DNA of 64,000 bases from Exobasidium rhododendri (lineage: Eukaryota; Basidiomycota; Exobasidiomycetes; Exobasidiales; Exobasidiaceae): positions 1,426,001 to 1,490,000 of the forward strand of contig CP110632.1 in NCBI GenBank assembly GCA_026210745.1, given 5' to 3'. Numbering within the stretch: the first letter of the stretch is position 1; every line of letters starts with the position of its first letter. A program made the position numbers and the translations under genes. Below, piece by piece: positions 17,627 to 21,267 of this stretch. The notes under the pieces are model-generated. The model made no database searches. It worked only from the letters and a program-made list of their open reading frames with translations, and was not told the origin of the DNA.

Positions 17627-18966
17627 TTATACATTTATTTCATGGCCCAAACCACACTCTCGTCGAATGACCTCTAGGAGGGGCAGACCCTCTCCACTAT
17701 CATCTTGAATATCCATATCGATATCTACATACTGGTCCACCGACAGCAACGCTTCGAGATCAAAATCGTTGCTGGGTAGCAGCGTTTCTTCACCGCTATT
17801 AAAAGTCGGTGTCACATCATCTTGCCGGACATCAATCTGGCCAGCTTGTGCGAGCGTTCCTGCACTTTGCTTGTCTTGTTGCGCTTCACCATCCTCACCC
17901 GTACTCGAATGCGTATTTTCCTGGTAGTCGGTAGACGATTCGAGCATACCTTCGAGGTACTGAGCCAGCCAGTTGCTGCTTTCCTCTCCCGTTCCTTCTC
18001 CGCAGCTTCCTTGACTGCTAACGACTTGCTCACCTTGCTCACCACTCGCACTCTCTGCCCAGAGAGCCACATCTCCTCCCTCATTGCTGCGGCCATTGAT
18101 TGGCTCAGCCGTCTTGTCTGTTGCCTGCTTTCGATTCCCTGCTTCTTTGCAACGTTCGCCTTGATGATCAGAGTCGACGTCAGTGATGCCCGCTGCTGGG
18201 CCGGTGCGCTATTGCTAGCACACCTTGTCGCCTCCACTGCAGGGAGGCGAGCATCAGAGATTGTCAAGTCTTTTGGTGTAATCATCAAAGCATTTGGCAA
18301 AGTAGAAAGGGAAGAAGCAGGCGAGACAATCACGGACGAGCTTATCGGCGCTGCAAATGAGGTAGAATCTGTGGTCCTTTGAGAGAGGGCTTGAGGGGTG
18401 ATGCAAAGGAGAGAAGAAGAAGTAGCGTCAACTGCTTTGGGAAGAGATGATGGTGAGAAAGGCGTAGAATCTGTCGTGACTTGCTCCACGTTCCCCTTGT
18501 TTGCTCCAGTAGCATTGAGAAGAGTCTTGACCAAATCCTCCAGTGCTTTGATCCTAGTCGTCATCTCTGCCTTTTCGGCTCGAAGCTGTGTGACTTCTAC
18601 CTCCAGATTGACGACATGATTTTTCTTCCGGTCTCGACTGTGCTGAGCAGACACACGATTTCGTGCAGCTCTTGCTTCCAATCGTGCGACTCGAGCGGGG
18701 TCCATCTTACCCTTGCTCTTGCTCTTGAGAGTCGAGCGGGACGATGCACTTGTGGCAGTCGTTGTAGTCGATGAAGAGTTGCCTTCATCGTCGTCATCAC
18801 CATCGTTATCGTCCTCTCCGTCCATGATACTGGAGGCAGGCGAACTGGTGCGAGTGGAAAAGGGTGAACCAAGCGATCTCTTGCGCTTATGTGACGTCGG
18901 CGATGGTGAGTCGTTTAGGGGAGACATGGCTAGACTGCTGGTTGTGGCGGTGGCGGCGGTGCTCAT
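17627..18966 (-). CDS. HAC1: HAC1/CIB1-type bZIP unfolded-protein-response factor
   Basis: The 5' frame begins at 18966 and encodes an acidic, Ser-rich N-terminus and a bZIP at about 91-150. The basic region AARNRVSAQHSRDRKK has the N-x7-R signature and the RDRKK run typical of Hac1/XBP1/Cib1. A leucine zipper follows. Unspliced, this frame ends at 17812 (384 residues) with an Arg/Lys-rich tail. Removing 18196-18239 (44 nt) joins exon 18240-18966 to exon 17627-18195, giving 431 residues. The new C-terminus is acidic, with NDFDLEALLSVDQYVDIDMD near the end, as expected for an activation domain. In fungi the IRE1 kinase-RNase excises such an intron during ER stress and tRNA ligase rejoins the exons; the protein then activates chaperone and ERAD genes. 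Family assignment is strong; the splice is inferred from hairpins and frame. Confidence 0.8.
18188..18201 (-). promoter_or_regulatory. Candidate IRE1-site hairpin at 3' cut
   Basis: On the mRNA strand GCCC and GGGC flank AGCAGC, with the cut inside CAG|CAGC. The stem is only 4 bp (or 3 bp plus a bulge around a 7-nt loop), weaker than the 5' hairpin. Confidence 0.5.
18196..18239 (-). other. Predicted IRE1-type non-spliceosomal intron (44 nt)
   Basis: The intron lacks GT-AG ends. On the mRNA strand the 5' cut is CTG|CAGT and the 3' cut is CAG|CAGC, both matching the CNG|CNGN rule of IRE1 substrates. Both cuts fall after the first base of a codon in their respective frames, so excision shifts translation cleanly from the bZIP frame into the acidic C-terminal frame. 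The intron also contains the TAG that otherwise closes the acidic frame upstream. Confidence 0.7.
18228..18250 (-). promoter_or_regulatory. IRE1-site stem-loop at 5' cut of HAC1 intron
   Basis: On the mRNA strand a perfect 8-bp stem, TCGCCTCC paired with GGAGGCGA, closes a 7-nt loop CTGCAGT. Loop size, the conserved C1, G3, C4 and G6 positions, and the cut after G3 all fit known HAC1/XBP1 substrates. Confidence 0.75.
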
Positions 18967-19444
18967 GGTGCGATACAGGTGTGTGTGTGTGTGTGTTGGA
19001 TATTATAGTGATAGTGATAGTGATACAAGTAATAGAGACAAGTCAAAAGAATGTTGAGTGAGAGAATTGGGCGAGAGGGCGAGAGACTGGATGACGTGGA
19101 AGCAGGGGCAAAGTTAAGGGCGGAGAAGGGCGAGTTTGTGAGAGATCGTGGTATGCAACAGAAGTCTAATTTTGATCCTACTCTCCTCCTTAACCTACGT
19201 GGAAGGGGGCCGCCCCCTTTGACCGCTCAGCATTTCGAAAGATCTGGAAAGCTGAACTTGAAAGCGGAGAGCAGGAGAGCCACGTGGGAAAGTATGAGAT
19301 ATGCCTCTCGGCCGAGAGAGCAGCCTGGCGTCATATTGCGTAGTAGCGTTAGGACAGTAGGTACTGTAGTAAGTAGTAAGTCGAATCTGTATTACTCCAC
19401 CAGAGGTAGCTACCGCTGCTCGCCATCCCAGTCGCTCATCTCTC
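18967..19444. other. Divergent promoter, HAC1 / FBXO9-like gene
   Basis: 478 bp between start codons. Close to the HAC1 start there is a (GT)n run (18979-18994, read as CA repeats in the HAC1 leader) and three AGTGAT hexamers (about 19005-19022). No UPR element could be asserted by eye. Confidence 0.45.
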
Positions 19445-21267
19445 ATGACGAGTGCAGAAGATGATGAGCGATCAGCGTTATCTCACACTCTGCGGGACAA
19501 GCTGAAGCTGGAGCAGCCACCTACGCCAGCAGAGGAGGATGAACTGGCTCGATTTCGTCGCGAGTGGGAGGCGGAGGTGACAAAGGCAAAAGGAGCACCA
19601 GCGGCTATTTCATCGGATGTCTCCATTGCGTCTGGCTCAGGCTCGTCGTCGTCCACTCTGAACCGGCATGATATTCTATCAAGAGCTCGACCTGTCAGCA
19701 ATAATGAATTATCGAGACGACAGTTGCAGGCGACAAGAGATGCCGATCGTGCATCTTCTACATTGAATCGAGTGGAGGAAGTAGAGCTGGGCGAGGATGG
19801 CATACAAGCACCCATCCGTCTTATGAGGAGGGCAGTAGAGTGCTATGCTCAGGCAGTCGAATCAGAGCGAAGCGGGAAGTTGGACGAAGCACTTGTGCAA
19901 TATCGCAAGGCTTTCAAGTTAGATCCAAACGCAGATAGATTATTTGAGAGAGCTAGTAATGCCATTCAAGCGGAGGTGGAGTATGGCGGGACAGGCACTC
20001 TCGGGAGGAAAGATGTTCTCATCGAGACGGAGGATGTCCGAAGTAGTCTCTGCAAGGCTCTCAATGTGGAAGACTATCGATATAGAGCAATGAAGGAGCA
20101 GGAGGGCCGCAAAGAGCAGCAATCTGTCAAGGGTGTCTCCGATGTTGCTGCCACTACGCCTACCGCGACCAATGACAAGCACATCAGCGGTCGAGATGAC
20201 CTTTCAGCCTTGATCGATAGACTCTCAGTCCACAGTGGCGGAGAGCGAGACTTTAGTGAAGTCCGTCTGGAAGCGGAAGACGAAGAGAAGCCAATTCCTT
20301 TTGCAAAGTTACCCGAAGAGATACTTCTTCACATTCTGACCTTTATTGCTGCTCCAAAGGGAAGAAGAGGCGCTCTCATAGGTAAAACAGCATCGGAAGA
20401 GCAACAGCAAAAGTCCAGTAACGCTGGAGGAGGAGACGAGACGGGAGAGAGTGCGCCTATAGAGAGGCCAGAAAGAAAGCAGGTCGGTATCGGGGTAGTC
20501 CTGGCAGGACCAGACTACATGTCCATTGAGAGCCTAGGCCGAACGTGCTGGAGATTTCGACTCTTGACGAGAGCGTGGAGCGTCTGGAGGTGAGTTTGCT
20601 GCTATCGGGAGAGAAGCCTAACACATAGTATATTCACACCTCCTCTTTGTTCAGACTCATCGTTCGAGAAACATACTTCCCGCCTCAAATCTCTTCCAAG
20701 CTGCCTCTCACTTCCCTCGTCGAAGCGCACAACAACGACTGGCGCACTGCGTTTGTAGAGCAGCCCCGTGTACGACTGAACGGCGCCTATATTGCAGCAT
20801 GTCACTACAGTCGAGTAGGAGTGCATGAAGAAAACATCTGGGTTCGAGTGGTTCATGTAGTGGAATTTTATCGTTCGCTGCGTTTCCTACCAGACGGTCG
20901 CACCCTTTCTCTCCTTACCACTGACGCACCAAGTCAGACTATTCGAAAGATGGAGCCTTCGCTTCGTGGAGTAAAAGGATTCGCTATTGGAAAGTGGACG
21001 TTGCACCCTCAGGGTCTTGCCGATGATCAAGCGTACTCTCGGCCAGTAGGACCAAAGATCATCGTCGACGACCTTCGAGATAAGTCAATGAGCCGCTATA
21101 CTTTTCGAATCATATTAAAATTAGACAAGACTTCTCGTGGAAAGTGGAACAAGATGGACATTTTAGAGTACGACAGTATTAATCTGGAGAGCGGCGAAGT
21201 GTGTGCCTTGCCCTTGAATCATAAGAAGCCCTTCCACTTCTCGACTGTTCGTAGCTACGGAATCTGA
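19445..21267 (+). CDS. HRT3: F-box protein, FBXO9/Hrt3/Pof7 family
   Basis: Exons 19445-20589 and 20655-21267 (65-nt intron splitting an Arg codon AG|A) encode 585 residues. Residues about 120-185 form a TPR-like helical pair (AVECYAQAVESERSGKLDEA...YRKAFKLDPNADRLFERA). An F-box follows near 280 (FAKLPEEILLHILTFIAA), interrupted by a Ser/Gln/Gly insertion. The C-terminal part (LNGAYIAACHYSR, then EFYRSLRFLPDG) is the conserved FBXO9/Hrt3 domain. The order TPR, F-box and beta-rich C-terminus matches this family, which acts in SCF ligases linked to nutrient or TOR signalling in other eukaryotes. It is divergent from HAC1. Confidence 0.88.

Follow-up and report, generated by a model that had tools for sequence, protein, structure and literature searches.

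The minus-strand bZIP gene of the window (the whole 64,000-nucleotide stretch of Exobasidium rhododendri CBS101457 DNA analyzed here) is very probably a HAC1/XBP1-type UPR transcription factor gene whose mRNA carries a predicted 44-nt IRE1-type intron. It would add a now mis-annotated example to the known HAC1/XBP1 class. The unspliced mRNA would encode a bZIP protein whose tail is basic. Under ER stress, IRE1 would cut after the CUG (18240) and after the CAG (18196), the fungal tRNA ligase would join the cut ends with the loss of 44 nt, and translation would shift into an acidic tail of 189 residues, the presumed activation domain. We infer that the RNA is cut and ligated, that stress controls this step and that the new tail works as an activator. 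A first-pass annotation had read the gene as a UPR switch like HAC1, CIB1 and HXL1, carrying an IRE1 intron of 44 nt. A rare hairpin, the frame switch and the coding character of the acidic frame agree with that reading, as do the splice-site residues of relatives and the IRE1 and tRNA ligase genes found in the genome. For the plant-parasite genus Exobasidium, the gene offers a UPR switch that can be tested. Its reading frames and predicted products are as follows.

17812 to 18966, minus strand: bZIP gene, unspliced frame, 384 aa with a basic tail (ORF listing and translation)
18514 to 18687, minus strand: bZIP domain, residues 94-151 (Pfam PF00170 E 1.8e-10, PF07716 E 5.4e-6)
18240 to 18966, minus strand: coding part of exon 1, 242 codons plus 1 base, ending in phase 1
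18196 to 18239, minus strand: predicted IRE1-type intron, 44 nt
17627 to 18195, minus strand: exon 2, acidic frame, with its stop at 17629-17627
18209 to 18217, minus strand: two TAG stops inside the intron that block the acidic frame

The ATG is at 18966, and the predicted intron lies downstream of the PF00170 bZIP domain. Excision of 18239-18196 shifts the frame to give 431 aa instead of the 384 aa of the unspliced form, and exchanges a basic 142-residue tail for the acidic 189-residue tail (junction codon counted). The acidic tail contains 41 D+E and 10 K+R, compared with 9 D+E and 34 K+R in the final 141 residues of the unspliced protein. The predicted spliced junction is ...CTCCCTG↓CAGCGGGC.... 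The proposed phase-1 join into an acidic frame of about 190 codons ending at 17627 is borne out by translation. The intron does remove a block to this frame as first described; the block consists of two in-frame TAGs (18217-18215 and 18211-18209), not one. There was no NCBIfam match above the cut-off, and a PDB sequence search with the bZIP alignment returned 31 sequences to E 1, mostly bZIP and none named HAC1 or XBP1. The IRE1-site check covered this gene, one of 12 bZIP matches in the genome.

The cleavage-site rule for IRE1 is CNG↓CNGN (arrow, cut). Both intron ends fit the rule, with CTG↓CAGT at the 5' site and CAG↓CAGC at the 3' site, and each lies in a predicted hairpin.

18228 to 18250, minus strand: 5' hairpin, 8-bp stem and 7-nt loop CUG↓CAGU (sequence and site scan)
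18203 to 18224, minus strand: hairpin internal to the intron, 9-bp stem and GCAA loop (minimum free energy fold)
18188 to 18201, minus strand: 3' hairpin, GCCC/GGGC around CAG↓CAGC (fold)

The 5' site reads TCGCCTCC-CTGCAGT-GGAGGCGA. The loop is 18242-18236, and 18250-18243 pairs with 18235-18228 in 8/8 Watson-Crick pairs, so that computation reproduces the perfect stem described in the first-pass annotation. The minimum free energy fold retains this stem and adds 1 pair within the loop. The 3' site was correctly placed 44 nt on in a smaller hairpin: it occupies 18198-18192, and its best fold has a 4-bp GCCC/GGGC stem and a 6-nt loop, with the first C of the CNG paired. Drawn as a 7-nt loop, the 3' site has just 2 bp beside the loop and a stability of -2.2 versus -7.5 kcal/mol for the 6-nt form. 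RNA folding had been suggested as a check of the hairpins, and the 81-nt region folds into the three hairpins with z = -2.52 (2 of 200 shuffles were equally stable). An Rfam scan returned no family at threshold and one chance match.

The frequency of such sites was surveyed in the window and 22 loci of the same genome, 549,404 bases counted over both strands. The survey contained 2,232 CNGCNGN sites. With G-U pairs allowed, stems on a 7-nt loop were 4 bp long at 24 sites, 5 bp at 13, 6 bp at 5, 7 bp at 2 and 8 bp at 2. The 5' site of this gene is the only all-Watson-Crick 8-bp stem; the other 8-bp case includes G-U pairs. Site pairs were counted when the 5' stem had at least 5 bp, the 3' stem at least 4 bp in either of its loop forms, and the two sites were 15-400 nt apart. 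Two pairs qualified, that of this gene among them, with both pair and stem thresholds set post hoc after the target had been seen.

Relatives comprised 21 distinct proteins among the matches listed (the best 8,000 candidates were scored in each search). Splice-site residues were compared in 17 unspliced forms, the window's and those of 16 of the 21 relatives, at sites chosen by eye; relatives within one clade are not independent. The 5' site reads (L/H)-P-A-(V/A/E)-(E/V/M) in 17/17. Since P-A followed by V, A or E necessarily encodes CNGCNG, the residues force the motif in every sequence. The flanking residues L..E, H..V and H..M can take the complementary codons CUC/GAG, CAC/GUG and CAU/AUG, with stem pairing in the relatives inferred from amino acids only. 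None of the relatives' DNA was found in bacterial/archaeal genomes or viral contigs. From composition, a GNN residue is expected at a rate of 0.284, a complementary pair at 0.214 and a CNG-codon residue at 0.292; common descent means that these rates are not simply multipliable. As judged from the proteins, the independent part of the 5'-site evidence is the change among L/E, H/V and H/M. Among 8 sequences, 7 of the 12 invariant columns past residue 150 are at the two splice sites. These patterns suggest that IRE1 sites are recognizable from proteins alone, through residues that share just a codon pattern.

At the 3' site, 16/17 sequences have a residue with a CNG codon (Q, L, P or R) ahead of a conserved Q. 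The site of P0012 is ambiguous between P-P-R (56 nt) and L-Q-R (71 nt), with 11 candidates. The other close relatives have implied introns of 35, 38, 44, 53 or 56 nt, and those of the distant P0014, P0015, P0017 and P0021 are 20 nt. All implied lengths are 2 modulo 3, which is built into the search register and carries no weight. According to PMC3154848, the Aspergillus fumigatus intron is 20 nt.

Cuts at 18195 (47-nt intron) and 18111 (131-nt intron) would enter the same acidic frame. The first of these, an IRE1 cut 3 nt later at CAG↓CGGG that would give a protein one residue shorter, is improbable. It satisfies CNG↓CNGN, and the conserved Q-R also allows CAG↓CGG. Against it, the stem on a 7-nt loop is 1 bp with no slipped stem, and the residue before the conserved Q varies: it is Q, L or P, and in P0017 it is R. 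This variation points to the CNG ahead of the Q as the site. The junction of P0016, read by hand, also fits a cut preceding the second Q of its kin P0014.

Two database proteins follow the offset-2 frames of their kin. P0016 is P0014-like upstream and then runs in the offset-2 frame of P0014, with 45/45 residues compatible (offset 1 reaches at best 0.39). Its junction V-S-L-D-L fits a 20-nt excision between two CNG↓CNG sites by hand reading. In Jaminaea, P0019 (named J. pallidilutea) runs in the offset-2 acidic frame of P0013 over 59/60 residues in the best window, and no offset-1 window got through the filter. Random pairings gave a mean of 14.7/60 and a maximum of 58, the maximum probably arising from draws that landed on the true diagonal. 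The offset-2 fit begins at residue 201, directly after the Q of the 3'-site P-Q-R. The acidic tail of the window's protein has no significant similarity to P0019, P0020 or P0018, as 87, 30 and 391 of 500 shuffles, respectively, score as high.

The coding character of the overlap between the two tails was measured with a codon log-odds model trained on 72 ORFs (41,682 codons). The overlap scores +0.189 in the acidic frame, -0.032 in the unspliced frame and -0.247 in the third frame, and the acidic frame past the unspliced stop scores +0.308. By comparison, the score of 128-codon windows from the ORFs used for training is +0.120 (sd 0.070) in the true frame, against -0.127 and -0.148 in the other two frames. 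Openness was evaluated by synonymous recoding. With the unspliced protein held fixed, a fraction of 0.0002 of 20,000 recodings leaves the acidic frame open; with the acidic protein held fixed, the fraction that leaves the unspliced frame open is 0.13.

An acidic codon takes its first base from the third position of an unspliced codon and its other two from the first and second positions of the codon that follows, so that the acidic wobble base is the unspliced second base. Second-base change was scored from amino acids alone in an Exobasidium-like clade (3 sequences) and a Meira-like clade (6 sequences). The second-base share of first- plus second-base change in the overlap is 0.566 versus 0.509 in the control for the Exobasidium-like clade (column-permutation p 0.026) and 0.691 versus 0.548 for the Meira-like clade (p 0.021). 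Sign tests count 36 to 15 and 32 to 13 columns with second-base change exceeding first-base change. The intron segment, which has no acidic reading, shows the same excess, with shares of 0.600 (11 variable columns) and 0.677 (10) and column counts of 6 to 3 and 9 to 1. The second-base excess is weaker coding evidence because this small intron sample shows it too; RNA-level constraint could explain the excess inside the intron. The K+R count of the basic tail in this recoding test is 33, compared with 28.7 (sd 2.5) expected from the acidic frame; 33 is reached in 6.5% of recodings. Taken together, codon usage, second-base change and openness make the acidic frame look like the primary one, with the basic tail mostly a by-product of it.

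There are two other readings of the overlap. That splicing is not regulated at all, the gene being an ordinary basic-tailed bZIP gene and the acidic frame a chance ORF, is barely credible. The unspliced frame is indeed open, P0008, a deposited protein from Meira, follows it in alignment, and the homology of the acidic tail is not significant; codon usage and openness nevertheless favor the acidic frame, as does second-base variability, though the intron shows a similar excess, and the basic tail is largely predicted from the acidic frame. In animals, XBP1u restrains the spliced activator. A comparable arrangement here, in which the unspliced protein with its arginine-rich tail is also made and holds back the spliced activator, is rather unlikely. 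RIRVRVR occurs in the window's unspliced tail and in P0002, with near forms in P0003, P0010 and P0012. If true, a single DNA stretch would specify two tails, one acidic and activating, the other basic and repressing.

Among the matches listed, the closest to the predicted spliced form is P0001, which is 97% identical and comes from E. rhododendri CBS101457, a strain that PMC13010171 lists as having a whole-genome sequence. P0001 corresponds to the removal of 62 nt, and only one of 4 equivalent placements (18221-18160) has GT-AG ends.

18160 to 18221, minus strand: GT-AG intron implied by P0001, 62 nt, GTGCTA...CAAG (of the four placements that yield P0001, the one with GT-AG ends)

A spliceosomal intron at this position would link the bZIP and acidic frames with no IRE1 control, a highly improbable arrangement even though it reproduces P0001 exactly and has a CTGAC branch-like motif and an AG near its 3' end. 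Its donor GTGCTA is off-consensus, compared with GTRAGT in 5/5 HSP70-family introns (hand reading, small sample); the gene neighboring IRE1 has a probable intron, outside this count of five, that begins GTGTGT by hand reading. In P0003, hand reading of the corresponding codons shows no good donor, and a GT-AG intron leaves the hairpins and the 17/17 retention of P-A-(GNN residue) unexplained. There are 563 GT/GC-AG combinations able to join both frames when donor strength is ignored, and frame alone is thus insufficient to exclude a spliceosomal intron. The 62-nt GT-AG intron of P0001 is probably an annotation artefact, and the 44-nt IRE1-type intron is the preferred reading of this junction. 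The Jaminaea models P0019 and P0020 lack the splice-site region and have the acidic tail at their ends. This suggests GT-AG bridging of the two frames in public models, in P0001 and probably in P0019 and P0020, and with the Jaminaea models included mis-annotation may be general in the group. The bridged models and the unspliced P0008 suggest that the predicted active protein is misreported.

The machinery for such a reaction was sought in the genome (17.65 Mb, 4 contigs). There is one match to the IRE1 RNase domain, in a candidate with both kinase and RNase domains that matches a solved IRE1 (3fbv) with E 1.1e-115. The candidate carries RRKY and RNKKHH motifs, which presumably hold the catalytic residues. 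There is also one match to the fungal tRNA ligase, with ligase, kinase and phosphodiesterase domains.

A candidate UPR element is located upstream of the bZIP gene, on the side of a divergent neighbor ORF at 19445-20593 (+) that we take to be F-box-like from a motif seen by eye.

19092 to 19099, plus strand: UPRE-like element TGACGTGG

The CACGTCA core of this element starts 132 bases upstream of the presumed ATG, and autoregulation through it is possible. Across the window, the UPRE-like pattern TGACGTGK occurs 5 times versus 3.5 expected, which is no enrichment. The core also occurs 170 bases upstream of the presumed ATG of an HDEL-ending HSP70 (BiP, L039) and 100 bases upstream of that of an HEEL-ending HSP70-like gene (LHS1-like, L042), with a sampled rate of 0.117 per kb over both strands. 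Of the 7 HSP70-family regions examined, L039 and L042 included, it also lies somewhere in L040 and L041 and is absent from L037, L038 and L043. The presence of CACGTCA at three expected UPR genes is a weak indication of common control, drawn post hoc from few cases.

Yeast HAC1 has a 252-nt intron, and the E. rhododendri gene has no such intron. Yeast-like attenuation by pairing of the 5'UTR with the intron was considered and rejected, the duplex (-26.0) being weaker than the shuffled-intron mean (-28.9, sd 3.3). Ustilago maydis belongs to the same subphylum as E. rhododendri; its cib1 intron is 65 nt compared with 44 nt here. Cib1 is a Hac1-like factor (PMC6918084; PMC4836707), and PMC6918084 describes an mRNA that loses its unconventional intron through Ire1. 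HXL1 of Cryptococcus neoformans has a 56-nt unconventional intron, as given in PMC3154848 and PMC6116095, compared with 44 nt in the E. rhododendri gene. HXL1 is a basidiomycete bZIP mRNA in which a short IRE1 intron past the bZIP changes the C-terminus (PMC3154848), as is predicted for the E. rhododendri gene. HXL1 also has a 55-nt conventional intron according to PMC3154848, whereas the ATG-to-stop frame of the E. rhododendri gene needs none. The wider likeness to XBP1, HAC1 and hacA of animals and ascomycetes includes the bZIP, a predicted frame-changing unconventional intron, predicted twin hairpins (the 3' one here with a 6-nt loop in its best fold), and IRE1 and a ligase; introns of this type are 19 nt upwards in PMC3154848 and PMC6222058. 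Searches of open-licence papers found no UPR gene of Exobasidium, and the papers listed on Ire1 and Hac1 make no mention of Exobasidiomycetes.

Among the protein matches listed (best 8,000 candidates, most entries without a name), no entry is named Cib1 or Hxl1. P0018 from Marasmius tenuissimus is named X-box-binding protein 1 (E 1.8e-4). It is a lead to a mushroom HAC1 orthologue; the Pycnoporus genome paper (PMC4101180) states that a HAC1 orthologue was not identifiable there. P0018 reads FPAAGG where the spliced window protein has LPAAGI. The entry P0006, assigned to the fern Adiantum nelumboides in an assembly whose longest contig is 1.28 Mb, is a Meira-like bZIP protein and probably stems from fungal contamination of the plant assembly or from an endophyte.
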